The notes below the pieces were generated by a model. The model was given only the letters and a program-made list of their open reading frames with translations, was not told the DNA's origin and did no database searches. The position numbers and the translations under genes were made by a program. DNA of 27,536 nt from the IMG/VR virus record IMGVR_UViG_3300024520_000410, positions 1 to 27,536 of that record, one strand, 5' to 3'. Positions 6,771 to 27,536 of this stretch are shown in pieces (positions within the stretch are counted from its first letter, which is position 1; every line of letters starts with the position of its first letter). This DNA comes from a virus.

Positions 6771-6783
6771 GCGGCGTCACCCT

Positions 6784-6817
6784 GGGGAGTCGGGCCGGCG
6801 CTTCGGCCCGGCTCCCC
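6784..6817 (+). terminator. Long GC hairpin after the capsid gene
   Basis: The arms GGGGAG-t-CGGGCCG (6784-6797) and CGGCCCG-g-CTCCCC (6804-6817) pair along 13 bp plus one T:G contact, with a 6-base loop. No T-run follows. The next gene's ribosome site (GGGGAGGG) starts a few bases downstream. The hairpin could protect the 3' end of capsid mRNA or partly terminate it, giving high capsid output relative to downstream genes. Confidence 0.65.
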
Positions 6818-6836
6818 ACCCCGGGGAGGGATCCAC

Positions 6837-14653: not shown

Positions 14654-16177
14654 GTGGCGTTCAGTGGACGTCGGCACCGTGTAGACGTCGAGATCCGGGG
14701 GAAGGACAACCTATCCCCCGCGACGGCGAAGAGCGAGAAGGGTCTCCGTAGCTTCGGCGACACCGCCGCATCGGTAAAGGCTGGCCTGTTCGCCTTTACC
14801 GCAGCGGTCGCCGCGATGACGGTCGCGCTTGCGTCGTCGCTCGCGGAGTTCGCGAAGAACGAAGTGGCCGCTACAAAGTACGCGGCGGCGCTCCGCTCGG
14901 CCGACCAGTTCTCGCAGGCGAACGTAGAGAGCGCGAAGGCGCTGTCCAAGGAGCTCCAGGATCAGGCGAACATCGCACGCGCCGACGGGCTGGAGATGGC
15001 GTCCCTGGCGCTGGCGTTCACGAAGAACGCCGAGGAGGCAGAGCGCCTCACGCGTGCGGCTGCGGACTTCGCCTCGGGTGCTGGACTCAACATGGAAGAG
15101 GCGCTCCGGCGTCTCGGCCGTGCGACGCAGGGATCCGTAGACGACGTCTCGAAGTTCGTCCCCGAGATCCGCAACCTGACGAAGGCGCAACTGGAAGCGG
15201 GCGAGGCGACGCGCCTGATCTCGGAGCGCTTCGAGGGGCAGGCGAAGGCGGCGACAGACAATCTCGCAGGCGCCTACAAGTCCTTGACGCTGGCGGTCTC
15301 GGACTCCACGGCAGCGTTCGGCGAGGGCGCCGCGACGGCGGGCAACTTCCAGACGGAGATCGAAGAACTCGCGACGACGGTGGCAGAGAGCGAGGGGACG
15401 ATGACCCTTCTCGGAACCGCCGTCGGCACGGTCGCCGGAGTCTTCCCCGCAGCCATCCGGCGCATGCTCCAGTTCGCAGAGAATGCGCGCCTCGCAGCGG
15501 CCGGCACGAACGCGCTCAGCGAAGCGACAGACAAGGAAGCGGTAGCGGCGACGGAGGCAGCGGCGGCGGTCAACGTCCTGTCTGCCGCAGAGGAGCGACG
15601 CCTCCGGATACAGACGGACGTAGACGACACGCAGAAGTCTCTAAACGATCGCCTGACCGCGCTCGGAGTCGTGCTCGAAGCCGACGTCAACGTCCAGCTA
15701 CAAGCGAATGCCGACCTTATGGAGGCGGTCACGCGGAACGCTCGCGAGCTGGGACTCTCGGAACAGGACCTGACGAACATCGGGAAGGCGCTAGCCGCGG
15801 AGGACATCAAGCTCGCCGAGACCTTGACCGGCGTAAAGGAAGAGGCAGACCTCGCGACGGTAGCAATCGACGCGCTCGCGACGCAGGCGATCAGAGCCGA
15901 CACGAGCGCGGCCGGTCTCTCGTCGTCGCTGGTCGGCGTCAAGGCGGAGCTGGCGAGTGCGGAGATCGCAGCCATCAGGACGGCGCAGGCGTTCGACCGG
16001 CTCGCAGCCGCGCAGGGGCGAGCCGCTGCGGTCGATGCAGCGGTCCGCAGTGGCGGGCAACTGGTACTCGGCGGAACGCGTGTCAACCTACCGGGCGGCG
16101 GATCGCGCCTGACATCGGAGCCGGGCTTCCGGACGCGCTTCTCTGGCGGGTCGAGCGGCGGCGGAGGTAGCTTCTAG
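14654..16177 (+). CDS. Tail tape measure protein
   Basis: The 507-aa protein starts at GTG behind AGGGGAGG. It is almost entirely helical, rich in Ala, Glu and Thr. Residues about 38-58 form a hydrophobic stretch (FAFTAAVAAMTVALASSLAEF) and the C terminus is Gly/Ser-rich (SGGSSGGGGSF). These are typical tape measure features; the length sets tail length, and at about 0.15 nm per residue would predict a tail near 75 nm, short for a siphovirus. Opening RRHRVDVEIRGKDNLSPA is common among tape measures of this class. Confidence 0.88.
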   Translation: MAFSGRRHRVDVEIRGKDNLSPATAKSEKGLRSFGDTAASVKAGLFAFTAAVAAMTVALASSLAEFAKNEVAATKYAAALRSADQFSQANVESAKALSKELQDQANIARADGLEMASLALAFTKNAEEAERLTRAAADFASGAGLNMEEALRRLGRATQGSVDDVSKFVPEIRNLTKAQLEAGEATRLISERFEGQAKAATDNLAGAYKSLTLAVSDSTAAFGEGAATAGNFQTEIEELATTVAESEGTMTLLGTAVGTVAGVFPAAIRRMLQFAENARLAAAGTNALSEATDKEAVAATEAAAAVNVLSAAEERRLRIQTDVDDTQKSLNDRLTALGVVLEADVNVQLQANADLMEAVTRNARELGLSEQDLTNIGKALAAEDIKLAETLTGVKEEADLATVAIDALATQAIRADTSAAGLSSSLVGVKAELASAEIAAIRTAQAFDRLAAAQGRAAAVDAAVRSGGQLVLGGTRVNLPGGGSRLTSEPGFRTRFSGGSSGGGGSF

Positions 16178-16178
16178 C

Positions 16179-16988
16179 ATGGCCTATCGGGAGCCGTTCT
16201 TCTGCTCGCGTCACATGTACAGGGGGGGCAGCGGGATCACCGCAGCCAGCGCAGCGGCGGCCGGGTTCCCCGCGTCGCGCGTCGCGGACGGCCGGCACGC
16301 TGTCAACTTCAAGCACGGAACATCGCAGGCGAATAACACGATCGCGGTAGACGCTGGCGGGGTACCGATCCTGAACTCGGATCGGCTGCTGATACCGACG
16401 GGGCACAACCTCGCGGGACTGCGCCTGCTCGTCGAGACGGACGACAACTCCGGGTTTGCGACGCCGACGACTATCCTTGACCTCAATCCCGTGGCGACCA
16501 GTGGCGTGATTAGCGCCGCGATCTCCGGTCCGGAGCGGCACATACGCTGCAACGTGGTGGACGTGTCGATCCCCGAATATCCCGAGATCTGGATCACGCG
16601 CGACCTCACGCCGACACGCGGCCCGGCTCCCGACTTCAAGGGCGATGGGCTCGTGGCGGCGCAGCCTAACATAGAGGTGATCGAGACACAGGGTGGCGAG
16701 ACGTTCCGGACCGTACACGGGCCGTCACGCAAAGTCTTCGACGTGGAGTGGCGCTTCCTGACCGACGTGGACATGGATCCAGCGGCGGGCACCTTCGGTG
16801 CGCTCGCGGTGGATACGAACTCCGGCGCGCTCCCGTTCTGGTTCTTCGATACGAACTCCGCACACGAGCCGATCTATGTAGAGCTGGTACGTCCGCTCGC
16901 GGATAGCGTCCAGCAGGATCACCCGGACCCGCGAGGCGCGGGCAACCGCTGGCGCGTGAGCCTGCAACTAATCGAAGTCCTCGCCTAG
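16179..16988 (+). CDS. Distal tail protein-like
   Basis: The 269-aa protein follows the tape measure and precedes the hub, the normal place of the distal tail protein. It starts MAYREPFFCSRHMYRGG, has an Ala-rich N-terminal part, and a C-terminal beta domain ending in a strand (WRVSLQLIEVLA) typical of proteins that pair with tube and hub rings. The ATG is one base after the tape measure stop, with GGAGG inside the end of that gene. Family assignment is by position and architecture. Confidence 0.7.
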   Translation: MAYREPFFCSRHMYRGGSGITAASAAAAGFPASRVADGRHAVNFKHGTSQANNTIAVDAGGVPILNSDRLLIPTGHNLAGLRLLVETDDNSGFATPTTILDLNPVATSGVISAAISGPERHIRCNVVDVSIPEYPEIWITRDLTPTRGPAPDFKGDGLVAAQPNIEVIETQGGETFRTVHGPSRKVFDVEWRFLTDVDMDPAAGTFGALAVDTNSGALPFWFFDTNSAHEPIYVELVRPLADSVQQDHPDPRGAGNRWRVSLQLIEVLA

Positions 16989-19867
16989 TGCTCGCGCTTA
17001 CCGCCGAGCAGCAGGAAGCCTCCGGAGCGCGCGAGGTGATGGCGGTCAACTTCGTCACCGTCGTCGCCTACTCGGATAAGGATGCAGGGACGGTGCTCCA
17101 GACGTGGCGCTTCGCGGATCTGCCGGTGACGTTCAATTCGGACGCGTACGAATCACTGCTGATCGACGTCACCCCGCAGACCGACTCCATGGTCCACCTT
17201 CCGCGCCTCGAATCCGCCGGCTCGGATGGCGTGCCGGGCCGCACACTGCGAGCAGTCATCCACCGCGGCGACATCGACGGCACGCTGCTCTACGAAGACA
17301 TGCGAGGGCAGAACCTGGAGTCCGCTTCCGTCGAGTGGTTCCAGGTACTGGTCCCGCTCGGCGGGCAAGGCGCAGACGTTCCGCCGCTGGAGAACATCCA
17401 ATCCGTGCAGGCGGCCGTCGCGGCGATGGTGATCGGGGACCGCGTCGTCCGGTTCAACGGAGACTTCGAGGACTGGGAAGTAACCGATAAGGGGATCGAG
17501 ATCACGGCGCGCGCTGCGCGGCCGGCGATCCCGTGGATCATCGCAAGCGACGCTACGCAGGTAGACCCTGACGACGTCGGGCGGCGCTTGCCCTTCGTAT
17601 ACGGGAAGATGGGGAAGGTCCGCGCCGTCGGCTGGGACGTCGGCGCAGCGTCTACGCTCTCGACGCTGATCGACGAGGATGACACGACCATCGTCGTCAC
17701 AGACGGCTCGCGCTTCCCGACCTCGGGCTCCGGTCTGATCGGCACGGAGTCCGTGTCCTGGACGGGGCGGACAGCGAACTCGCTCACGACCGTCACGCGC
17801 GGAGCCGACGGCACGACGGCCGTGTCGCACGCGCTCGGGGAGGTACTGGTAGAGACGATCGCGACGGCTACGTGGATCGTCAACGCACGCGAGTCTGACG
17901 CCTTCGGAGACCTCTTCGTAGTGTCCCCCTACAACGGCGCCGTGGTGCGTGTCGATGCGAGCCTGTACACGTCCACGCTCGCGGACACGACCACGATCAG
18001 CGGCGAGACGGTGACGTCGGTCAAGTTCACGGCCGCTAATCTGCGTGCGCTGCTGATCGACATCGCATCCAAGGGCACGCTCGGAGAGGGCGCGCTCGCT
18101 ACGGAGGAACGCTTCCCGGACGCCTACCCGAACACGCCGGCCGCGCAGGATCACTATTCATGGCTGGACGGGAACATCCAGACGGGCCGGACATCGAACA
18201 CCATCAACCGCCGGCTCCGCTTCGAGGAGAGCGGACCCCGCGCCGATCGAGTGATCGAGAAGTGTACCTATCGGTTCCATGCGAGCCTGACGAACACGGC
18301 GACGATTCAGCTCCGCGAGACCTCGGGCGGCGCCGTGCTCGAAACGATTACCAACAGCTTCGGCGTGACCCATCAGGCGTGGTGGGAGATCGAGACCACG
18401 GACGCCGGCCTGCTCGGCTCGGAGCTATGGATTACCACGTCGGTCGGCACGGTGACGATCCTGGCGGTGAGCCGCATCGAGCACTTCGCGGGTGTCTTCC
18501 CGTTCGAGTGGGTGAAGCCGAAGGCGACGGCGTCCAGCATGGGGACGTTCGGTCACTTCACCGATGGCGAGACGGCGGTCGGCGGGGTGACGACGCTCAC
18601 GACTGCGGGCTCTACGCGCGTGTTCACGATCACCTACGACACGGACACAGGGGACCCGCCCGAGGAGATCCGGTACCGCGTCTACGCCAAGCTGAACGCG
18701 GGCACGTCCACTGCGTCCGAGGTGCGGATCCAGGGATCGGGGGACGCGCTCGGGACTTGGATCGGTCGCTCGAAGAACACGGGCGGCGCTATTGAGGGGT
18801 TCTTCGAGACGGTCATCACGTCCGACAATGATTCCGGCGAGCTGGCGTCTGACGTGATCCAGGTCCAGCTACAGAACGGGAACGCCGGGACGTCGTCGAA
18901 CGTCACCGAGGTCGAACGCTGGGAGCTTCGCCCGGCTCTGACCTCGTCGGCCGAGATCGCCGCGACCACGGTCGGCATCGGGCTCGTGCTCTTCGCGGAC
19001 CTGGACGGGATCGTAGCGGCCGGCGGGAACTACATCGCCGCAGACGGTGTCGTCCTGGAGAAGATGCCGGACATTCTGCGGCACGTGATCGCGGACCTCG
19101 CGGGTGAGGGGCAGACGGCGATCTCTGCGAACTGGGACGACGCCGCGAGCGCGACGAACCTGGACGACAACGTCCACGCGCTGGTTCTGAACACGCTCGG
19201 CGCCAGCTTCGAGGAGATCGTGGAGCGGGCGGCGTTCGACTCGCGCGCGAATATCGGAGTGACGCACGGGAGCGCCGCGACGCCGCTCCGAATCTGGGAG
19301 ATGCTGGCAGCGGAGAGCGACTATACGTGGGACCCGCCGGGCGGCGGCGCCGTGTCGCGTACGATCTCACGCTACAGGAACGTTACGGAGAAGCTCCGTC
19401 CTAGCTTCGAGGTGTTCACCCGCTTCCGTGCGCTTTACAACTGGGACGCGTCGCGCGGCGACGGTCCCGAGGCGTTCGACTCCGTGGTCCGGATCGACAC
19501 CGATCAGGCGGACACGCACGGCTCTACCGGCGGGCCGTCGAACACGGAGATCGCGACGGCCGAGACGATCTACGGACGCCGCGACGCTCCGGCCGTGCTC
19601 TTCCCCACGATCCGCGACGAACTCACGGCCGAAGAGGTGCTCGGGTACTACGCGAAAGAACGCATCCGCGAGGGCGTGCGAGAGTTCAGCGTGTTCGGCG
19701 TCGTCTGGATCGAAGCCTACGACCTGGAGCAAGGGGACGTGGTCCTACTCGAAGTGGACTGGCTGGACCCCGTCGAAGACCCGAACGGCGCGCGGCTCCG
19801 TATCGTGCAGATTGACAAGGATCCGTCCACTAACACCTTCGACGTCTACGGGGTAGAGGTCTCGTGA
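16988..19867 (+). CDS. Tail hub/tip protein with inserted beta-sandwich modules
   Basis: This 959-aa protein starts at GTG sharing TAGTG with the previous gene. Residues about 1-215 resemble siphovirus hub N termini (Tal/gpJ-like), ending with DDVGRRLPFVYGKMG. Residues about 225-290 hold a small recurring phage motif (SRFPTSGSGLIGTE ... TVTRGADGTTAVSHALG). Residues about 384-500 and 506-652 look like two beta-sandwich (carbohydrate-binding-like) modules. Residues about 655-959 return to hub-like sequence, closing with VWIEAYDLEQGDVVLL. The protein probably closes the tail tip and, through the inserts, contacts the host surface. It is the main receptor-binding candidate in the late operon. Confidence 0.8.
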   Translation: MLALTAEQQEASGAREVMAVNFVTVVAYSDKDAGTVLQTWRFADLPVTFNSDAYESLLIDVTPQTDSMVHLPRLESAGSDGVPGRTLRAVIHRGDIDGTLLYEDMRGQNLESASVEWFQVLVPLGGQGADVPPLENIQSVQAAVAAMVIGDRVVRFNGDFEDWEVTDKGIEITARAARPAIPWIIASDATQVDPDDVGRRLPFVYGKMGKVRAVGWDVGAASTLSTLIDEDDTTIVVTDGSRFPTSGSGLIGTESVSWTGRTANSLTTVTRGADGTTAVSHALGEVLVETIATATWIVNARESDAFGDLFVVSPYNGAVVRVDASLYTSTLADTTTISGETVTSVKFTAANLRALLIDIASKGTLGEGALATEERFPDAYPNTPAAQDHYSWLDGNIQTGRTSNTINRRLRFEESGPRADRVIEKCTYRFHASLTNTATIQLRETSGGAVLETITNSFGVTHQAWWEIETTDAGLLGSELWITTSVGTVTILAVSRIEHFAGVFPFEWVKPKATASSMGTFGHFTDGETAVGGVTTLTTAGSTRVFTITYDTDTGDPPEEIRYRVYAKLNAGTSTASEVRIQGSGDALGTWIGRSKNTGGAIEGFFETVITSDNDSGELASDVIQVQLQNGNAGTSSNVTEVERWELRPALTSSAEIAATTVGIGLVLFADLDGIVAAGGNYIAADGVVLEKMPDILRHVIADLAGEGQTAISANWDDAASATNLDDNVHALVLNTLGASFEEIVERAAFDSRANIGVTHGSAATPLRIWEMLAAESDYTWDPPGGGAVSRTISRYRNVTEKLRPSFEVFTRFRALYNWDASRGDGPEAFDSVVRIDTDQADTHGSTGGPSNTEIATAETIYGRRDAPAVLFPTIRDELTAEEVLGYYAKERIREGVREFSVFGVVWIEAYDLEQGDVVLLEVDWLDPVEDPNGARLRIVQIDKDPSTNTFDVYGVEVS

Positions 19868-20547
19868 TCCAGTACAAGCCGGGCGTAGTGCTTCGGCCGT
19901 TCCACGCTTACCACGGGATGCAAGCGATCCTGGACGCAGCAGACCGCACGTCCCCGCCGACCGTGGGCGGCATCGTCGTCGTGACGAGCGCGCACCGTGC
20001 GTCGTCGCTCGCCGACTCGCTACACCCCGAGGATCGTGCGTTCGACTTCCGCGTCCGTTCGTCCGACCCCGAGCTAGACGGGAACGTCCTGGCACCCGGG
20101 CCGCGCATCGCTTGGCGGATGGCGGGTGATTGGGTCATGGCGATGCGGATCGCGCTCGGGGAAGGCTACGACGTAATCCGCGAGGCGGACATGATCGACA
20201 CGGGTGACGGCGTCGCGGCGGCGCAGGTCATTCATATCCATGCGGAGTGGGATCCGCCAGAGGGGATAGAGATGCCGAAGACAGAGCCGGCGAAGCCGGC
20301 GTCCGTGGGTTCGATCGTGGGGTGGATCCTTCGCAGTCCGCTGCTCGGGTTCGTTCCGAGGGGGTACCTGACGAAGGCGGCAGCGTACGCGCAGGTCGTG
20401 GCGGGCGTGGGTCTGCTGGGCTCGTGGGTCGCGACGTCGATCTCTACGGGCGAGGTCAACCCGACCTCACTCGACGCGATCCTCGGCTCGATCCTCGCAG
20501 CGAACGGAGCGCAGGGGGCAGGGATCCGACGCGCGCTCGACGAATGA
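19864..20547 (+). CDS. M15-like peptidase endolysin with C-terminal membrane segment
   Basis: The 227-aa protein starts at GTG overlapping the hub stop. Residues about 1-130 fit the M15 D,D-carboxypeptidase/L,D-endopeptidase pattern that cuts peptidoglycan cross-links: S52-x-H54-x6-D61 (SLHPEDRAFD) and a later H124-x-H126, giving plausible zinc ligands H54, D61 and H126. Residues about 174-193 form a hydrophobic helix inside an otherwise unfamiliar C-terminal domain of about 90 aa. No wall-binding domain is visible, which suits a Gram-negative host. The membrane segment may anchor the enzyme or supply holin/pinholin-like function. The next gene, a small membrane protein, overlaps by ATGA, completing a likely lysis pair. 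Confidence 0.78.
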   Translation: MIQYKPGVVLRPFHAYHGMQAILDAADRTSPPTVGGIVVVTSAHRASSLADSLHPEDRAFDFRVRSSDPELDGNVLAPGPRIAWRMAGDWVMAMRIALGEGYDVIREADMIDTGDGVAAAQVIHIHAEWDPPEGIEMPKTEPAKPASVGSIVGWILRSPLLGFVPRGYLTKAAAYAQVVAGVGLLGSWVATSISTGEVNPTSLDAILGSILAANGAQGAGIRRALDE

Positions 20548-20735
20548 GTCACGAGCGCAAGCCGAAGCTCGACCCGGCAGAGGAAGCTCTGCGCCGCTGG
20601 CTAGAGGGGCGGCCGTTCCTCGTGGTCTATCCGGTCGCGCTTGCGTGGTGGGCGGTCGGAGCGCCCATCCTCGGGACGCTCAGGGGCATTCGGGGCGTGC
20701 TCCGACGCAGGAAAAGGAACGGCCCGAAGCGCTGA
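20544..20735 (+). CDS. Small membrane protein, holin/spanin candidate
   Basis: The 63-aa protein MSHERKPKLD... starts at the ATG overlapping the endolysin stop. A hydrophobic helix covers residues about 27-43 (VVYPVALAWWAVGAPIL) and the tail is strongly basic (RRRKRNGPKR). One TM helix with a positive C terminus, placed directly after an endolysin, is a common holin layout. Its last codons form the left arm of the hairpin that ends the operon. Confidence 0.75.
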   Translation: MSHERKPKLDPAEEALRRWLEGRPFLVVYPVALAWWAVGAPILGTLRGIRGVLRRRKRNGPKR

Positions 20736-20752
20736 CTGGAACGCCTCGGGCC
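20721..20752. terminator. Hairpin at convergent end of late operon
   Basis: GGCCCGA (20721-20727) pairs with TCGGGCC (20746-20752); an inner GCG/CGC adds three pairs after one mismatch. It lies between the late operon and the leftward VRR-NUC gene, whose stop is 40 bp away, so it could end transcription from both sides. No T-run follows. Confidence 0.6.
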
Positions 20753-20791
20753 GGACCCCACACTAGAAGCTCACCGTACCCCGAGAGCGTA

Positions 20792-21118
20792 TCACCTTGA
20801 CGCGAGCCGTCGAGACCTGACGCGATGCGTCGCAAGCGCGCTCGCTACCCGCAGCGCCGCGAGCGCCTGCGTCTCCGTCTCGACGACGAAGTGTGGCCCG
20901 CCGTTCCAGTCTGCGTGAGTGCGCTTCTGCGTCACTTCGAGCGCGCCGTCGGGACCCTTCACTTCCAGCAACAGAGTCTCCCCCTGATAGCCTACGACGA
21001 GATCCCAGAACCCCGAGGGGTTCGACTCCTGGATCCGGAAGACGCGCGCTCCAGCGGCCTCCAGGACGGCGACAATGCCGGGCTCTGTTGAGTCTCGACG
21101 CTTCCCCCCTCGGCGCAT
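20792..21118 (-). CDS. VRR-NUC domain nuclease
   Basis: The 108-aa protein matches the stand-alone phage VRR-NUC family, small PD-(D/E)xK-fold nucleases proposed to resolve branched DNA. Visible active-site candidates are E12 in DSTEPGIV, D39 in SGFWDLVVG, and E52-x-K54 in LLLEVKG. The start is the ATG at 21118, with AAAGGGGAACC upstream on the minus strand; a longer in-frame reading continues upstream but is Arg/Ser/Pro-rich and looks non-coding. It may process recombination or replication intermediates made with the ERF annealing protein. It is the last gene of the leftward cassette. Confidence 0.85.
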   Translation of the reverse strand: MRRGGKRRDSTEPGIVAVLEAAGARVFRIQESNPSGFWDLVVGYQGETLLLEVKGPDGALEVTQKRTHADWNGGPHFVVETETQALAALRVASALATHRVRSRRLASR

Positions 21119-21305
21119 GGTTCCCCTTTCGAGATTCGGCGGGGGGTTCTTCGCGATCTCTGGTAGACTGCGGAGCGTGGTTGGTCTGCGTCGGGCCGGT
21201 CCACCCCTGATCGCTTCGAGGGTGGGCCGGCTCTTCGCTTCTGTCTCCAGCTTCGGTGATCCAGTTCGCCACCATGCACCCCCCGGGCATGGCCGATCTA
21301 GGGGC

Positions 21306-21341
21306 GGCGAGAGCCGTCTTCCCCGTAGTGGGCGAGAGCCG
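21306..21341. repeat. 11-bp direct repeat in the non-coding gap
   Basis: GGCGAGAGCCG occurs at 21306-21316 and 21331-21341. The 25-bp period is neither a codon multiple nor part of a longer repeat. Each copy can also fold as GGC/GCC around GAGA. Two copies are too few to call iterons. Confidence 0.5.
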
Positions 21342-21382
21342 AAAGCGAAGCCTGCGCTGGAACTCGCGGGTCCATGCCCGCA

Positions 21383-21408
21383 CCCCGTTTTTTGTGCCTG
21401 TAACGGGG
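21383..21408. terminator. CCCCGTT/AACGGGG hairpin
   Basis: Seven perfect pairs (21383-21389 with 21402-21408) enclose a 12-base loop containing most of a T6 run. On the minus strand it lies 26 bp beyond the stop of the 143-aa gene, where it could attenuate transcription before the VRR-NUC gene. On the plus strand a GCGGG/CCCGC hairpin just upstream followed by the T6 run looks like a rightward terminator. Confidence 0.45.
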
Positions 21409-21434
21409 AAGGATCGAAACAGGACCCCGCAACT

Positions 21435-21866
21435 CTACTCGCTCGGGGTGGACGAGAGCAAGGCGTCCGGGTCGAACTTGCGCGCGCCTCCCCTGCCGAT
21501 TGAATCGGCGAACTCGGCGAGCTTGCGGCGCACGCGCTCGCGCTCTTCGGGTGAGACCTTCTCGCGTTCCTTCGGCGGCGACGCGTGCGGGTATGGTTGC
21601 TGCGCGTCCTGCATGCGTCCGGCGCCGGACGCGAGCGCGAGGTCCTCGGCCTTCCGTAACCACTTCTGGAAGGTCGCCTTCCAGGACTTGCGGCGGATTC
21701 CCCGCGACTGATGGTAGTCGCGGCAGTCATCCCAGTGGCGGGGCAGCGTGCGCGAGTTCAGGAAGCGCCACGGCTGCGCGCGGAACCACGTCCAGAATTG
21801 ACGCAGCTCGACGTCTGACAACGTGTCGGAGAGCCGCTCGGGCGCCTCCGTCTGTCCGCCTGCCAC
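21435..21866 (-). CDS. 143-aa basic protein, possible replication accessory
   Basis: The protein starts at GTG sharing TAGTG with the stop of the XRE regulator, so the two are translationally coupled. Residues about 17-80 form a Trp-rich helical domain (FWTWFRAQPWRF ... WKATFQKWLRKAEDLA) reminiscent of C-terminal DNA-binding domains in phage replication initiators or DnaT-like loaders, followed by a charged helix (SPPKEREKVSPEERERVRRKL). I cannot name the family with certainty. Position beside a repressor and opposite the recombination genes supports a DNA replication or regulation role. Confidence 0.7.
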   Translation of the reverse strand: MAGGQTEAPERLSDTLSDVELRQFWTWFRAQPWRFLNSRTLPRHWDDCRDYHQSRGIRRKSWKATFQKWLRKAEDLALASGAGRMQDAQQPYPHASPPKEREKVSPEERERVRRKLAEFADSIGRGGARKFDPDALLSSTPSE

Positions 21867-22099
21867 TACGACGCGCGTCGGTCGGAGCGGAACAGACGCG
21901 ACGCGTCAGAGTCTGGAAGCTCGAACGCTTCCAGGATCTGTTGCATCGTCGAGAAGCGCGGCACGACCTGACCGGACTCGATCAAGTAAATTGTGCCGAT
22001 CGTGACGTCCGAGCGTTCGGCCAGGTCCTCGCGTGTCCAGAGCCGCGCCTCGCGTTCCTTGCGGAGCCGCGAACGTGGGCGTGGGTCAGGGGTTCGCAT
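21866..22099 (-). CDS. XRE-family helix-turn-helix regulator
   Basis: The 77-aa protein is mostly one Cro/CI-type HTH domain (residues about 18-63): LWTREDLAERSDVTIGTIY, then LIESGQ and P-R-F-STMQQILEAF, the usual XRE landmarks. There is no C-terminal oligomerisation or cleavage domain, so it is Cro-like in size. The ATG at 22099 is preceded by GGAGG. It faces the divergent control region with an inverted repeat at 22116-22152, its likely operator, and probably controls the rightward early promoter and itself. Confidence 0.9.
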   Translation of the reverse strand: MRTPDPRPRSRLRKEREARLWTREDLAERSDVTIGTIYLIESGQVVPRFSTMQQILEAFELPDSDASRLFRSDRRAS

Positions 22100-22105
22100 G
22101 GGCGC

Positions 22106-22134
22106 TTGCCTCCTAAGTGTGTGTTCGTCATAAT
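22106..22134 (+). promoter_or_regulatory. Sigma70-like promoter for rightward early genes
   Basis: TTGCCT (22106-22111), a 17-bp spacer and CATAAT (22129-22134) make a credible -35/-10 pair in a GC-rich genome. Transcription would start near 22141, about 26 bp before the first early gene. The left half of the inverted repeat lies inside the spacer, which suits repression by the adjacent XRE regulator. Confidence 0.6.
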
Positions 22135-22152
22135 CGGGAGCCTACACACACT
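22116..22152. promoter_or_regulatory. Inverted repeat, likely operator of the XRE regulator
   Basis: AGTGTGTG (22116-22123) and CACACACT (22145-22152) are perfect 8-bp arms 21 bp apart, flanking the -10 box. The symmetry extends outward: CTCCTAAGTGTGTG on the left against the complement of CACACACTAGGAG on the right, with one extra A on the left, so the two genes' ribosome sites are mirror images as well. Each arm could be one regulator site, with looping or cooperative binding between them. Confidence 0.6.
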
Positions 22153-22166
22153 AGGAGCATGATTCA

Positions 22167-22565
22167 ATGCGACCTTCTTTCGAGACCGTAGACCGCGAGC
22201 TAGAGCGCCAGGTAGAGGACGACGGGCTCGACGCGGCCGTGGAAGCGTGGGAACGCTGGAGCATGGAAGAGCACGTCAGGCGCGCGGAGGCGAACGTATC
22301 GACGATCGCGGACCGGATGCGCGCGGAGGCGGACGAGGTGCGCGACGCCTACGCGGAGCGAGGCTTCGCGGAGCCGTGCGGCGCGGCCATGCTGAGGGAG
22401 CGCGCGAACGCGACCTTGGACTTCGGCGCCTTCGTCCAGATCGCGGCGCTCGTCCTGATGGCGAAGGGGTACGCGGGAATGTTCGGGGTCGGGACGGCGG
22501 ACTTCGACCGCTCCGACGTCTCCTACTGGAGCAAGCGCGCGGCGCGCTACGTCGTCGGGCATTGA
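22167..22565 (+). CDS. Hypothetical 132-aa early protein
   Basis: This is the first rightward early gene. The 132-aa protein has an acidic helical N-terminal two-thirds, a short hydrophobic stretch (FVQIAALVLMAKGYAGMF, residues about 91-108) and a small C-terminal tail. TAGGAG lies 9 bases before the ATG, and an upstream out-of-frame ATG at 22159 opens only a short peptide. First position behind a controlled promoter suggests a host-takeover or regulatory role, but no family is recognised. Confidence 0.75.
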   Translation: MRPSFETVDRELERQVEDDGLDAAVEAWERWSMEEHVRRAEANVSTIADRMRAEADEVRDAYAERGFAEPCGAAMLRERANATLDFGAFVQIAALVLMAKGYAGMFGVGTADFDRSDVSYWSKRAARYVVGH

Positions 22566-23002
22566 GCGAGCTACTGGCCGTCCACTTCGGGCAGTCCCAG
22601 GACGGCGACCCGATCTCTCGTAACGAGGAACTACGGCGGAAGTGCGTCGCCTACCACGTGCGGAACCCGGACGTCCGGGTCCAGTTTGACAAGTGGGTCC
22701 GCCAACTGATCGACGCCGGCCGCAGCCGGTACGGCGCAGACGCGATCATGGAGCGCATCCGCTGGGAGACCGCGCTAGGGAACCCGAAGGCGCTGCGCCC
22801 GTTCAAGATCGCGAACGAACACGCGTCATTCTACGCGCACGACTGGGCGTGGAGGTACCCGGGGGAGCGTCGGTTCTTCAGTCTGAAGAATCAGAAGACG
22901 CACTGGGAGGCGCCGCTCGCTGGGCGCTTCTCGCACGCCGGGGGGGCGTTCGCGCTCGGGTCACGGCTCCGTGTCGAACGGAACGCACGGGCGCATCCGT
23001 GA
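22562..23002 (+). CDS. Hypothetical 146-aa early protein, TTG start
   Basis: I place the start at the TTG overlapping the previous stop as TTGA; the frame upstream of it is Gly/Arg-rich shadow sequence. The 146-aa protein has a helical start, KWVRQLIDAGRSRYGADAIMERIRWE, then FKIANEHASFYAHDWAWRYPGERRFFSLKN. This arrangement is known from small uncharacterised phage proteins in replication regions. No enzymatic motif is evident. Confidence 0.75.
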   Translation: MSELLAVHFGQSQDGDPISRNEELRRKCVAYHVRNPDVRVQFDKWVRQLIDAGRSRYGADAIMERIRWETALGNPKALRPFKIANEHASFYAHDWAWRYPGERRFFSLKNQKTHWEAPLAGRFSHAGGAFALGSRLRVERNARAHP

Positions 23003-23184
23003 AGCGAGACCACCCGCCCGAGCGCCGCTACGTAAAGGCGAATGCGTCACGGTGTCGGCATGCCCGATGGGACCCACTCCGGCAGCGTATCATCCGATGC
23101 GCGAACGACGCCGTCAGGCGGAGCTACACAACCCGGCGCCTCTGCGCCACACACTGGAGCGAAGAGAATGTCCGCAGGACCTGA
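22999..23184 (+). CDS. 61-aa Cys/His protein, putative zinc finger
   Basis: This small gene starts at GTG overlapping the previous stop (GTGA) and overlaps the ERF start by 17 bp. The 61-aa product is very basic and places C19, H21, C34, C49 and H52 in a C...C...C-x2-H pattern that could bind zinc. Such small Cys/His proteins are frequent in phage early operons and are often proposed to bind nucleic acid. Confidence 0.6.
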   Translation: MKRDHPPERRYVKANASRCRHARWDPLRQRIIRCANDAVRRSYTTRRLCATHWSEENVRRT

Positions 23185-24070
23185 ACTCTACGCCGCCCTC
23201 GCGAAGGCGCAGGGTGACGCGCAGACAATCGCGAAGTCTGGGCGCAACACACACCACGGCTACGACTACGCCACGCTGTCTGACTACCTGGACGTGGTCC
23301 GCCCCGTGCTCGCGAAGCATGGGCTGGGCGTGATCCTGGACGTGCCTGTCCGCGACGTCGTGCCGGGCATGGTGCGCGAGCGCACCGAAGAGCCGGAAGC
23401 GTGGGGAGCGCCGCGCTACCTGATCGCCGAGGAGTGGGGCGAGAAGCAACGCGCGCTCCGGCTCGGGTGCTCCGTGATCCTCTTCCACGAGTCGGGGCAG
23501 ACGCTCCAAGTGAACCTGATCGGCGAGGCTGCGGACGCGTCGGACAAACGAATCTGGAAGCTGTATACGGGCGTGCGAAAGTACGCGCTCGCGAACGTTC
23601 TGAACCTAGCGACTGGCGATGACCCCGAGAGGGACTCTCCGGAGGGATCGACGGGGCGATCAAGCGGCGAGAGTCGTCGCGAGACTACACCATCCCGCAA
23701 GGGGTCTCGCCAGTCGTCACGCGCACGGAAGACCGCAGGCGACGCAGAAGAGAACGCGAGCGAGGCGCAGGTCCGGAAGATCATGGCGGAGGCGGGTGCG
23801 CGCGGGCTCCAGGTCTTCGGCGGCGACGAAGCCGAAGCGAACGAGCGGCGTGGCGAGATCGCAAAGGCTGCGCTCATATCCGTCGGCGCCGTCAACTCAA
23901 GATGGGAGCCGACCTTCCACGCGCTCAAGAAGGGCAAGGTGGATGCGGTCCTCCGGATCGTGCGCGTGTGGATCCCTCCCGAGGCGGAGGGCGGCGAGGT
24001 CGGAGACGAGACCGCGAGCACGGCACCCGGGGAAGACCCCGGGCCACCTTCGGAGGGGTTTGAGCGATGA
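23168..24070 (+). CDS. erf: ERF-family single-strand annealing protein
   Basis: The 300-aa protein resembles the ERF recombination family, which anneals complementary single strands and supports genome circularisation and recombination-based replication. The N-terminal domain (residues about 1-155) has the expected opening, LYAALAKAQGDAQTIAKSGRN, followed by YDYATLSDYLDVVRPVLAKHGL, then beta strands and KLYTGVRKYALANVLNLATGDD. A Ser/Arg-rich linker (about 157-195) leads to a C-terminal domain of about 100 aa. The ATG at 23168 has GGAG about 8 bases upstream; the longer reading from 23042 lies over the previous gene. Confidence 0.9.
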   Translation: MSAGPELYAALAKAQGDAQTIAKSGRNTHHGYDYATLSDYLDVVRPVLAKHGLGVILDVPVRDVVPGMVRERTEEPEAWGAPRYLIAEEWGEKQRALRLGCSVILFHESGQTLQVNLIGEAADASDKRIWKLYTGVRKYALANVLNLATGDDPERDSPEGSTGRSSGESRRETTPSRKGSRQSSRARKTAGDAEENASEAQVRKIMAEAGARGLQVFGGDEAEANERRGEIAKAALISVGAVNSRWEPTFHALKKGKVDAVLRIVRVWIPPEAEGGEVGDETASTAPGEDPGPPSEGFER

Positions 24071-24393
24071 CCGAAGCACCGTTGACGTGTGACGCCTGCT
24101 GGGCGTCGGAGCCGCGCGACGAGGTCCGGACCCTGACGGACGTAGAGGCGGCGCGGCTCGGCTGGGATCAAGGCGCCCGGCTCTGCGCGCTCTGCGTCGC
24201 CATGCGGCGCATTGAACTCGGCGGCGACGACGTCCCCCACATGGCGTGCCTCGCCTTCCACGGAGAGCAGCGAGAGCTACCCCTCGAAGAGTCCCCCTCC
24301 GAGCGCTCCGACCGGCTCGCAGACGAAGACGAAGTCCGGGAGACCTCGGACCGGCTCTTCGCAGAATCGAAGCGCTCACGGGGCGAGGTATGA
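24067..24393 (+). CDS. 108-aa protein with two CxxC motifs
   Basis: The protein starts at ATGA overlap with the ERF gene. C8-x2-C11 and C40-x2-C43 form a probable zinc ribbon, and the C-terminal half is acidic and helical (EESPSERSDRLADEDEVRETSD). The order ERF then zinc protein suggests a DNA-binding or protein-interaction accessory to recombination. Exact function unknown. Confidence 0.72.
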   Translation: MTEAPLTCDACWASEPRDEVRTLTDVEAARLGWDQGARLCALCVAMRRIELGGDDVPHMACLAFHGEQRELPLEESPSERSDRLADEDEVRETSDRLFAESKRSRGEV

Positions 24394-24632
24394 CCCGCTT
24401 GGCGCTCGCGCTCGCGCTCGTCACGCTCGGTGACGTCCTGATCGTGTTCACGGATGACCCCGTAGTGATCTCCGAACTCGTGTGGGTCTGCGATCACGGC
24501 CGCGGCCGGGACTGCACCTTCGCTCTCGTCCCCGAACTCAAGGTCCACGGACCCCTTCCCGAGCCGTTCGAGCGCCCGGCGCCGGACTTGCAACACCCAC
24601 CACGCCGAGGTCCCCATGATCGACGTCCGTGA
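24390..24632 (+). CDS. 80-aa protein with N-terminal membrane helix or signal peptide
   Basis: The start is the ATG overlapping the previous stop (ATGA). Residues about 2-21 (TRLALALALVTLGDVLIVFT) form a hydrophobic helix; the rest has two Cys (VCDHGRGRDC) and a Pro/Arg-rich end. It overlaps the next gene by 17 bp. It may be an exported or inner-membrane protein; no family recognised. Confidence 0.6.
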   Translation: MTRLALALALVTLGDVLIVFTDDPVVISELVWVCDHGRGRDCTFALVPELKVHGPLPEPFERPAPDLQHPPRRGPHDRRP

Positions 24633-25839
24633 AGTCTCCGACAACGGCTACGTCTACCGGGTCCACTTCACCGCAGACGGACACCCGGAAGCCGAAGGGG
24701 ACGGCCCAGGACTCACGCAGATCTGCCGGCTCATCCAGCAACGGAACGAAGCTGCGCTCAGCTCGGGCCGGCAACACGTCCGCGGCTGGGCGATCGTGCT
24801 CCGGGGAGACTTCCACTTCGACCTCGCGCATCCCTGGATCCTCAACGCCGGACGCGTGGACATCCGCGGGCTCGAAGCTCGATTCTTCGCCCGAGGCGAA
24901 GCACCCGCCCGCCAGACGGGCGTTCGTCTGGAGCCCGGCCAACTGGAGGCGGTGCTCCCCGAAGGGCGTGCTGGGGACATCCTCCGCGATCCCCGCACCG
25001 GAGAGCAGGTCCCGATCCGGCACGACCGGGGCACGCACTACGAACTGGGCTGGCGCTGGCCCGGGGAGTCTGCGGAGGTCGATCTCTGTGACGGCTGCGT
25101 CCTGGAGCTTGGCGGCTCCATGGTCACGTTCCGGGACGTGCTCCCGATCTACGGGCCGCATCGCCGGGAGAATCGCCGGAACCCGTCCACGGCCGTCCGC
25201 ACGCCCGGCTGGGACCTCGAAGACGGCGTCTCGACGCGCAACTGGGACCACGTAGGTGACTACCCTCACATGCACGTCGGACACGACGGAGGCAAGAACG
25301 GCGTCCGGTTCACGGGCGGCGGCTCCATGTCCGGCGTCGGCATCCGTGCGGCATCCCGTCGCCACGCCGAGGGGCATCCCGTCCGAGGTGCGGCGTTCTG
25401 TCTGTTGGCGAACACCGTCAGGACGAGCTTCCGCGAGACCATGCATTTCAACTTCCGGCAGTACATCGTACGCGGCGGGCACTCGATCGAGATCCAGCTA
25501 GCCGGCGAGGGCGCAGCGCAACAGGTCTGGGCGCCCGAGGGGATCGCGTACCTGCACGGCTACGGGAACATGAACCACTGGAACAATCCCCTCGTCGCCC
25601 GGGACCTGCCCGTGTTCGACCTCGGGGAGGCGATCGGGAACCGGATCACGCACGCGGACCTGGAGTTCCCCTTCGCGTTCTTCCAGTGGGGGCAGGGGAA
25701 CGAGCGGAGCGTATTCGTGCGCGCCCGGGGGAACCCGGTCCACCTACACGCGCGCGGCACGCTGAGGAACTTCGCCGGAACGCTCTTTGACGTCCCCGAG
25801 GGTTCGAGGATCGACGCTGACGCGCTCTGGATCGAATAG
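24616..25839 (+). CDS. 407-aa probable beta-helix protein
   Basis: This 407-aa protein lacks a signal peptide. Its N-terminal 80 aa look alpha/beta, then repeated short strands with turns dominate: WILNAGRVDIRGLEARFF, VDLCDGCVLELGGSMVTF, GVRFTGGGSMSGVGIRAA and, near the end, PVHLHARGTLRNFAGTLF. The spacing is typical of right-handed parallel beta-helix (pectate-lyase-like) folds found in tail spikes and glycan-cleaving enzymes. It is unusual for such a protein to sit near the end of the early operon, far from the tail genes, though on the circular map it lies just upstream of the late promoter. GAGG precedes the ATG. Function unassigned. Confidence 0.72.
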   Translation: MIDVREVSDNGYVYRVHFTADGHPEAEGDGPGLTQICRLIQQRNEAALSSGRQHVRGWAIVLRGDFHFDLAHPWILNAGRVDIRGLEARFFARGEAPARQTGVRLEPGQLEAVLPEGRAGDILRDPRTGEQVPIRHDRGTHYELGWRWPGESAEVDLCDGCVLELGGSMVTFRDVLPIYGPHRRENRRNPSTAVRTPGWDLEDGVSTRNWDHVGDYPHMHVGHDGGKNGVRFTGGGSMSGVGIRAASRRHAEGHPVRGAAFCLLANTVRTSFRETMHFNFRQYIVRGGHSIEIQLAGEGAAQQVWAPEGIAYLHGYGNMNHWNNPLVARDLPVFDLGEAIGNRITHADLEFPFAFFQWGQGNERSVFVRARGNPVHLHARGTLRNFAGTLFDVPEGSRIDADALWIE

Positions 25840-25851
25840 GAGACCCCTTGA

Positions 25852-26136
25852 ATGGCCCACCGATACGTGACCCTGCCAGCGGCGCTCTACGCAGCGACGG
25901 ACCCGTCTGGGAGCGTCGTCCTAGAGACCCTCTCCAGAACGCGCACGGACTCATGGACTGCCCTTTTCCGTCACACCCGCCGCGAAGGCGAGCGCCTGAT
26001 CGCCCGGCATCAGGAACGCCTACGCCTGCGTCAGAGGGGGTTCCAAGTGATCGAGCTGGAACTCCGCCAAGCGGAGCCGCTCCGGATCCCGCTCCCCACG
26101 ACGCCCGCCCCGGAGCTGCTGCGTCCCATCGTCTGA
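25852..26136 (+). CDS. Hypothetical 94-aa protein
   Basis: The ATG has GGAG 9 bases upstream. The product opens with MAHRYVTLPAALYAATDPSGSVV and continues with a helical Arg/Glu-rich middle and a strand-like VIELELRQAEPLRIPL. A competing 128-aa frame (TTG at 25848) has Pro/Arg-rich composition over the same bases and is less convincing there. No family recognised. Confidence 0.65.
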   Translation: MAHRYVTLPAALYAATDPSGSVVLETLSRTRTDSWTALFRHTRREGERLIARHQERLRLRQRGFQVIELELRQAEPLRIPLPTTPAPELLRPIV

Positions 26137-26234
26137 CGTTCTGGGACCTCGCCTTCGCCACCTTCTGTGGACTTCTGCTCTGGATAGGCGCCTACGCTCT
26201 CGGGGTCGCCTTCTGGCGGGTCGTCTTCGGGTGA
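26133..26234 (+). CDS. 33-residue membrane micro-protein, probable CTG start
   Basis: The only sensible start is the CTG that overlaps the previous stop as CTGA, parallel to the ATGA, GTGA and TTGA overlaps elsewhere in this genome. The peptide is LTFWDLAFATFCGLLLWIG and on to VVFG, almost one membrane helix. The alternative is that it is the end of the longer 25848 frame. A next GTGA overlap follows at 26231. Its role could be in lysis or membrane signalling, but this is guesswork. Confidence 0.45.
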   Translation: MTFWDLAFATFCGLLLWIGAYALGVAFWRVVFG

Positions 26235-26458
26235 AGCTCCGTAGGGGTCCGACTCCGGCTCTGTACCCGCTCCACGTGGCGCTCGCGCTCTCGTGGTGGC
26301 GACCTCGGAGCGTGGTCCGCTTGGACCTGATTCCTCCATGCACTCCGAACGGGCGCACCGGGCGCGAGCCCGGGATACGCCGAAGGGGAGACCCGCTCTC
26401 ACGCACGCAGGGACGCCGGTCGCCAAGCCCGGCCGGCGTCCCGTCTATCCGCTTCTGA
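26231..26458 (+). CDS. Doubtful 75-aa ORF
   Basis: The frame starts at GTG overlapping the preceding stop (GTGA), which favours it. Against it, the product is Arg/Pro-rich with little visible structure, and its 3' third contains the 26410-26442 hairpin. I list it because of the coupled start only. Confidence 0.3.
   Translation: MKLRRGPTPALYPLHVALALSWWRPRSVVRLDLIPPCTPNGRTGREPGIRRRGDPLSRTQGRRSPSPAGVPSIRF
26410..26442 (+). terminator. Strong hairpin ending the early operon
   Basis: GGGACGCCGGTC (26410-26421) pairs with GGCCGGCGTCCC (26431-26442): 12 pairs including one T:G, with a 9-base loop. It is followed by pyrimidine-rich GTCTATCCGCTTCTG. Together with the second hairpin it lies in a roughly 400-bp stretch (26235-26652) with no convincing gene and separates early from late transcription. 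Confidence 0.65.
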
Positions 26459-26470
26459 TCGGGGGAAGTC

Positions 26471-26511
26471 CGCAGGCTCTGGCGCAGGGGGGGGGGAGCG
26501 CAGAGCCTGCG
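26471..26511 (+). terminator. Second hairpin, 14-bp stem with a G10 loop
   Basis: The arms 26471-26485 and 26498-26511 (CGCAGGCTCTGCGC and its complement, with one bulged G on the left) form 14 pairs. The loop is an A, ten consecutive Gs and an A. It lies 28 bp after the first hairpin. A terminator or an RNA regulatory element are both plausible. Confidence 0.65.
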
Positions 26512-26615
26512 GGCTTCGTCTGTCTGGGGGGCGACGCGAACGCCGCACCGCGTCAAGGGGTAGCCTCTCCTGCCCGCTCCGCTCGTTTCGGACCCCTGCT
26601 CGAGCGAGCTCCGCC

Positions 26616-26644
26616 TTGACACCCCGCGTCATGGCGGACAGTCT
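26616..26644 (+). promoter_or_regulatory. Candidate late promoter upstream of terS
   Basis: A perfect TTGACA (26616-26621) stands after the two hairpins. The expected -10 position (26639-26644) reads CAGTCT, a poor match, so a phage activator may be needed. If used, transcription would begin around 26651, at or next to the GTG start of terS, giving an almost leaderless mRNA. Confidence 0.4.
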
Positions 26645-26652
26645 TTCGCCCC

Positions 26653-27195
26653 GTGGGGGGCAAGACGAAGCCGACGGGCCGTCCGTCAAGCTACACGATC
26701 GCCGCAGGGGAGCGCGTCTGCGCCGCCGTGGCTGCTGGGGTCTCGATCCGGAGGCACTGCCGGGAGAACCCCGAGGCGCCGGATCGCATGACCGTGCTCC
26801 GCTGGCTGGATTCCTTCCCCCGCTTCCGCAGCCAGTACGCTCACGCGCGTTCCGTCCACGCAGACGAGGTGTTCGAGGAGATCCTAGACATCGCAGACGA
26901 CGCGTCGGCCGACACCTACGAAGACTCGCGCGGCCGGACCCGGACAGACCACGAGGTAGTCGCGCGCTCTCGGCTGCGCGTGGACGCTCGCCGATGGGCG
27001 CTCGCCCGCATGGACCCCAAGCGCTTCGGTGACAAGGTCCAGATAGGGGGGATGACCGATGGGGAACCGCTCAAGCTCCAGTGGACCATCGGCGAAGCAG
27101 ACCTCGACGAGATCGGCCAAGCGCTCAGAGAGACCGGCGTCTTCTCCGAAGCGCCGGAAGCGCCCAGCAACGGTCACACAAACGGCGCGGGCTAG
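26653..27195 (+). CDS. terS: Terminase small subunit
   Basis: The 180-aa protein recognises phage DNA for packaging. It starts at GTG with GGKTKPTGRPSSYT, then an HTH domain (residues about 15-55: ERVCAAVAAGVSIRRHCREN and TVLRWLDSFPRFRSQYAHA), a helical oligomerisation region with EEILDIADDASADTY, and RSRLRVDARRWALARMDPKRFGDKVQ, a hallmark of this small-terminase family. The acidic tail may contact the large subunit. Its last 137 bp overlap the start of terL. Confidence 0.9.
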   Translation: MGGKTKPTGRPSSYTIAAGERVCAAVAAGVSIRRHCRENPEAPDRMTVLRWLDSFPRFRSQYAHARSVHADEVFEEILDIADDASADTYEDSRGRTRTDHEVVARSRLRVDARRWALARMDPKRFGDKVQIGGMTDGEPLKLQWTIGEADLDEIGQALRETGVFSEAPEAPSNGHTNGAG

Positions 27196-27536
27196 TGCGC
27201 TCCAGAAGCTCACCCCGAGGCTTACGCGCTACGTGCCCCACCGTCCACACCCGCGTCAGTCCGCCTTTCTGCTTCTCAACGTACCCGAAGCGCTCTACGG
27301 CGGCGCCGCAGGCGGCGGGAAGACGGACGCGCTATTGATGGCGGCGCTCCAGTACGCCGACCAGCCGGCCTATTCGGCACTGCTGCTGCGGCGCACCTTC
27401 CCCGAGCTAACCCAAGCCGAGGGTCTGATACCCCGCTCCCACGAGTGGCTAGGCGGCTCGGGTGCCACGTGGAACGGCGACCGCTCGGAGTGGACCTTCC
27501 CCAACCGGGCCACGCTCCGTTTCGGGCACCTCCAGT
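27059..27536 (+). CDS. terL: Terminase large subunit, N-terminal part (continues at base 1)
   Basis: The frame reads LQKLTPRLTRYVPHRPHPRQ, then the Walker A motif YGGAAGGGKT (residues about 80-89, Lys88) and LLLRRTFPEL, all typical of phage large terminases. The only ATG, GTG or TTG before the conserved N-terminal block is the ATG at 27059, with GGGGGG 7 bases upstream; a GTG at 27233 would remove that block. This makes a 137-bp overlap with terS and an extra basic, Ser-rich N terminus of about 46 aa. The gene continues at base 1 of the window. Confidence 0.88.
   Translation, partial: MGNRSSSSGPSAKQTSTRSAKRSERPASSPKRRKRPATVTQTARASALQKLTPRLTRYVPHRPHPRQSAFLLLNVPEALYGGAAGGGKTDALLMAALQYADQPAYSALLLRRTFPELTQAEGLIPRSHEWLGGSGATWNGDRSEWTFPNRATLRFGHLQ
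27342..27536. repeat. Right copy of terminal overlap
   Basis: This is the partner of bases 1-195. Joining base 27341 to base 1 restores one uninterrupted terminase gene and gives a unit length of about 27,341 bp. The copy here carries ACG where the left copy carries ATG (27467-27469 versus 126-128), plus five silent third-position differences. Confidence 0.9.

Follow-up and report, generated by a model that had tools for sequence, protein, structure and literature searches.

A pair of terminator-like hairpins, one with a loop of ten guanines, upstream of the terminase small subunit gene in a GC-rich phage genome

Gene Layout around the Hairpins

The window analyzed here is the whole of virus record IMGVR_UViG_3300024520_000410, which comprises 27,536 bp with a GC content of 67%. 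Positions 1–126 recur exactly at position 27342 (0-based 27341), and the record ends as a whole (1–195 and 27342–27536) overlap with several base differences between the two copies. In addition, 118 aligned bases of a near-identical contig (L004) match the window end at 94%. This end repeat with few differences, combined with the match in the contig, suggests that the genome closes on itself at about 27.34 kb and that slightly different strains were assembled into one record.

A cluster of rightward genes extends from 22.2 to 26.1 kb and includes an ERF recombinase gene. At its left end, a CI-like HTH regulator is encoded on the opposite strand (Table 1). Positions 22100–22166 contain a perfect 9-bp inverted repeat (22116–22152) around the CATAAT −10 element of a sigma-70-like promoter, the only plus-strand promoter listed by a scan of positions 15000–27536. 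With its CI-like neighbor, this segment looks like a lysogeny-type control region, judging from its sequence features. The last large gene of the cluster (24616–25839) encodes a protein of 407 amino acids without a match in PHROGs, Pfam, solved structures or viral contigs, and the product of the last called gene (94 amino acids) has no family match in PHROGs or Pfam. Coding signal is absent in all six frames from about 26240 to 26650. Around 400–500 nt of noncoding DNA precede terS. The TerL, portal and major capsid genes come next, from the window start onward. The terminase appears to be mosaic: among phage records, TerL (126–1262) is nearest to that of the archaeal phage psiM100 (43%), while TerS (26653–27195) is nearest to that of Pseudomonas phage LKA5 (49%).

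Two hairpins, denoted HP1 and HP2, lie in the noncoding stretch before terS. The initial annotation had located them at an early/late border. Their position at a gene-cluster boundary just before terS is supported by the gene calls and protein families, and the CI-like regulator, the promoter/operator at about 22.1 kb and the ERF-containing rightward genes that end here fit such a border. The label “early” is one we infer, because the last large gene of the cluster belongs to no recognized family.

Table 1. Coordinates of the features around the tandem hairpins (window positions).
Feature	Position	Strand	Details
CI-like HTH regulator	21869–22099	−	left end of rightward cluster
Last called gene of rightward cluster	25852–26136	+	94 aa; GGAG upstream, coding signal
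HP1, terminator-like hairpin	26410–26442	+	13 pairs including one G-U; 7-nt loop
HP1 tail	26443–26450	+	GTCTATCC; 3 T in 8; tail score attained by 10% of window positions
HP2, terminator-like hairpin	26465–26517	+	17 pairs including one G-U
G10 run	26487–26496	+	apical loop (A-G10-A) of HP2
HP2 tail	26515–26526	+	TTCGTCTGTCTG; past the 14-pair core; tail score attained by 0.4% of window positions
Imperfect palindrome	26610–26638	.	29 bp; contains TTGACA; arms of 11, one mismatch
terS, Sf6-like terminase small subunit	26653–27195	+	PHROG 1482, PF20901; start GTG

Structure and Folding Strength of the Hairpins

Arms and RNA folding confirm that two hairpins occur in tandem and that one of them is capped by ten Gs, as initially annotated. 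HP1 starts 273 nt past the last called gene and has the arms GGGACGCCGGTCG and CGGCCGGCGTCCC, while HP2 has the arms GAAGTCCGCAGGCTCTG and CAGAGCCTGCGGGCTTC. Inside HP2, whose 14-pair core consists of 26468–26481 and 26501–26514, a short GCG(C) inner stem carrying a single bulged base leads to a 12-nt loop of the form A-G10-A; not counting this bulged inner stem, the loop measures 19 nt. The stem lengths of 12 and 14 bp proposed before were about right, the full counts being 13 and 17 pairs when G-U pairs are included. Two other measurements needed correction, as the hairpins are separated by 22 nt (to 26465) instead of 28 bp and the element does not end at 26511 but runs on to 26517.

As RNA, both hairpins fold better on the plus strand than on the minus strand (HP1: −28.5 vs. 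−25.5 kcal/mol; HP2: −45.3 vs. −35.5 kcal/mol). The z-scores of the plus-strand RNA are −4.50 for HP1 and −4.76 for HP2, and none of 200 shuffles folds equally well. Scored without regard to strand, HP2 comes first among all hairpins of the window, and the 60-nt segment at 26461 ranks third out of 2748 by folding energy. Strength alone is nevertheless not decisive, since the score of HP2 is attained in two out of 20 Markov-simulated windows of 27.5 kb. What does carry weight is the clustering of strong hairpins in noncoding DNA: five of the seven strongest in the window fall in the 1148 bases (4%) that are noncoding according to the gene calls made within this analysis (binomial P = 2.5e-6). 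Strong intergenic hairpins are also found after the major capsid gene (6783–6818) and before the portal gene (1692–1723), neither with a U tail. Of two other hairpins, that at 20720–20753 has a T-rich minus-strand tail and that at 21193–21233 a T-rich plus-strand tail; gene calls at 20.5–21.4 kb are uncertain. A possible alternative pairing between the HP2 3′ arm and the beginning of terS (17 nt, 82%) was rejected, being at about chance level.

The imperfect pairs of the hairpins carry a further indication of strand. In the four strong plus-strand hairpins, all of them are G-U on the plus strand (4/4), and in the hairpin at 20720–20753, with its T-rich minus-strand tail, both favor the minus strand (2/2). 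Across all nine noncoding hairpins, the polarity is 6 to 4 and thus unbiased, so that the argument concerns few, selected cases.

Hairpins directly upstream of terS might also act as DNA, namely as a cruciform, a replication origin or a packaging/terminase site, and an additional palindrome (26610–26638) occurs close by. Yet, the better folding of the plus-strand RNA of both hairpins and the retention of imperfect pairs as G-U in the plus sense make a role as DNA elements extremely unlikely. The palindrome ends 14 nt ahead of the GTG start codon of terS and, from its sequence, is possibly an operator or a third hairpin. The TTGACA box that had been noticed before terS is present at 26616, as one of three copies on the plus strand of the window. 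Its reading as a promoter is unsupported, as it has no good −10 element: with a −10 hexamer demanded 16–18 nt downstream, the scan of 15000–27536 did not list a sigma-70 promoter there.

Downstream Tails and Probable Transcription Termination

Both hairpins are stable GC-rich stem-loops that lie in noncoding DNA and follow a gene of their own strand, as expected of intrinsic terminators. The HP2 tail contains 4 T in 8 nt, which is equaled by 1.9% of window positions, while 10% equal the 3 T in 8 of HP1. These modest tails speak against terminators, as do the long loop of HP2, the 273 nt between the last called gene and HP1 and the lack of hairpin enrichment before terS in homologues, and a terminator scan requiring 5 T in 8 listed neither HP1 nor HP2. 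In the work on Streptomyces clavuligerus, a high-GC bacterium, the U-rich class of 3′ ends starts at 3 U in 8 nt, and folding energies are split at −23 kcal/mol (PMC8269248); a second study gives 3–4 U in the first 10 nt and a median loop of 4 nt for mapped Streptomyces terminators (PMC12207403). The tails of HP1 and HP2 both reach this minimum of 3 U in 8 nt (PMC8269248) but stay below 5 in 8. HP1 and HP2 resemble the high-GC Streptomyces terminators in their long GC-rich stems, their energies below −23 kcal/mol and the 3–4 U right after the stem (PMC8269248, PMC12207403). They differ in the 12-nt loop of HP2 with its G10 run, which is long compared to the median of 4 nt (PMC12207403), and in being two in series. 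In the second study, loop limits of 3–13 nt are quoted for TransTermHP (PMC12207403); the 7-nt loop of HP1 fits these, and that of HP2 counts 12 nt with the inner stem and 19 nt without it. Since the mapped Streptomyces terminators have similarly weak tails, we take HP1 and HP2 as probable tandem intrinsic (Rho-independent) terminators on the plus strand, which would close the ERF-containing unit and insulate the packaging genes.

The weakness of the tails also raises the question of whether the hairpins merely protect or shape an RNA 3′ end that is made by Rho or a nuclease, with the stems and the G10 cap stopping exonucleases. Two other intergenic hairpins of this genome lack any U tail, and U-lacking ends, possibly Rho-dependent or I-shaped terminators, are discussed in the Streptomyces study (PMC8269248). 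HP1 and HP2, however, are unlike those two hairpins in having 3–4 T in the first 8 nt, and we regard a role as stabilizers or processing sites as quite unlikely.

A different arrangement would be a regulated attenuator, in which the hairpins are part of the leader of the packaging operon, the promoter lies upstream of 26410 and a phage antiterminator allows polymerase through late in infection. Around 270 nt of noncoding DNA upstream of HP1 would leave room for this, and no promoter is recognized between HP2 and terS. On the other hand, none is recognized upstream of HP1 either, nor is an antiterminator among the early proteins scanned, although most cluster proteins match no named family. We hold the attenuator to be unlikely. 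In late control of phage lambda, the Q protein lets the polymerase pass terminator tR′. The situation here is similar in that a terminator would sit ahead of late genes, but it differs in that neither a Q-like gene nor a late promoter is recognized.

Under the preferred reading as tandem terminators, we infer both termination itself and the direction of control from what is observed, namely the hairpins, their location in noncoding DNA and the tails. RNA polymerase coming from the rightward unit (~22.2–26.1 kb) would transcribe HP1 first. Read-through past HP1 would reach HP2, where the RNA would be pulled out by the long GC stem with UUCGUCUGUCU behind it. The rightward unit would thereby be ended, and terS and the packaging and structural genes would be kept under separate control. 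In the apical loop, the G10 run would be little constrained by termination and is most likely a tolerated product of slippage.

Occurrence in Related Phages

Close relatives of this phage are scarce. No near-identical sequence turned up among 50,697 phage records. The only near-identical contig, L004 (with L375 one and the same near-identical contig), has 99.99% identity over 16,183 bp and ends at window position 16260, before the hairpins. It was retrieved by single-protein scans of viral contigs with TerS, the 407-amino-acid protein, the major capsid protein and the portal, which otherwise yielded L002 (TerS, 35%), L376 (portal, 42%) and three portal fragments (35–36%). Alignment scans with TerS retrieved 80 viral loci and a further 80 from genomes, at 35–52% identity, and a scan with TerL retrieved 80 loci at 31–55%. 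In most of these loci, the terminase genes alone match, with a portal in few and a head-tail adaptor in one. Among the contigs retrieved, L376 is the nearest with syntenic genes (terS 35%, terL 43%, portal 42%), and no hairpin scoring at least 24 is present in the ~240 nt upstream of its terS. The exact inner arms of HP2 occur in one of the viral contigs, where they enclose a 6-nt loop that lacks a G run. In phage LKA5 (L005), a 14-pair hairpin (3933–3968) likewise precedes the gene of the 49% identical TerS, but it is a single hairpin of different sequence, without a G run.

The loci of TerS homologues show no enrichment of hairpins upstream of terS: these occur in 19 of 131 loci, compared to 102 of 934 control tiles and a Markov expectation of 10%, after 29 of the 160 loci were dropped for short upstream DNA or near-duplication. 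A hairpin before terS as a shared trait was rejected on this count.

The Poly-G Loop

No other G run of the window is as long as G10, and runs of that length appear in 9% of 300 first-order Markov simulations. Of the 25 G runs of at least five, 6 fall in the 4% of the window that is noncoding, an enrichment that would be expected from mere tolerance in such DNA. Across 254 fetched loci (2.26 Mb), none of 57 strong hairpins has a G run longer than four in its loop, and a G or C run of at least nine occurs once. No comparable G-capped hairpin was found among 67 GC-flanked runs of at least ten Gs from other viral contigs, within the matches listed; this survey examined 80 of at least 119 stretches and dropped 17 of 84 matches for short flanks. 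Three stems among these listed runs score at least 26, all of them G/C homopolymer stretches, and the stem ranking after them has 11 pairs, close to the chance level. The absence from 57 hairpins and 67 runs indicates a rare cap, one confined to this phage in the material surveyed.

Those three best stems all lie within 40 nt of the start of the scanned stretch, and a single assembly covers the G10 run, the near-identical contig ending at 16260. Hence, the length of the run could be a sequencing or assembly error while the hairpins are real, which would be compatible with the terminator reading. Against this, the run is 1040 bp away from the end of the contig and its complementary arms are intact on both sides; we deem such an error rather improbable.

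An intramolecular G-quadruplex at the G10 run is not supported: no standard motif of four G3+ tracts with loops of 1–7 nt starts within 26440–26560, compared to four motif starts in the whole window. In the titles and opening lines of abstracts of the literature searched, no work on poly-G terminator loops is apparent. Functions that may be imagined for the cap, carried on its 17-pair stem at a transcript 3′ end, include an exonuclease block, binding of a phage or host protein, intermolecular G-quartets between RNAs or a change in length that tunes termination ahead of the packaging genes. A role of the loop is unsupported because no relative examined carries the G10 run, and a functional cap is very unlikely. 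The simplest reading is a slippage tract that an unconstrained loop tolerates, and from its distribution the G10 loop is probably private to this phage and neutral.

Biological Implications

Apart from one unexplained detail, the long poly-G loop, HP1 and HP2 are ordinary. Should the G10 loop prove to have a function or a variable length, it would represent an unusual kind of tuning element. In this small phage genome, for which close relatives are few, the two hairpins mark what is likely the boundary of a transcription unit, and they suggest that a GC-rich phage may close a unit with two terminators of long stem and weak tail.
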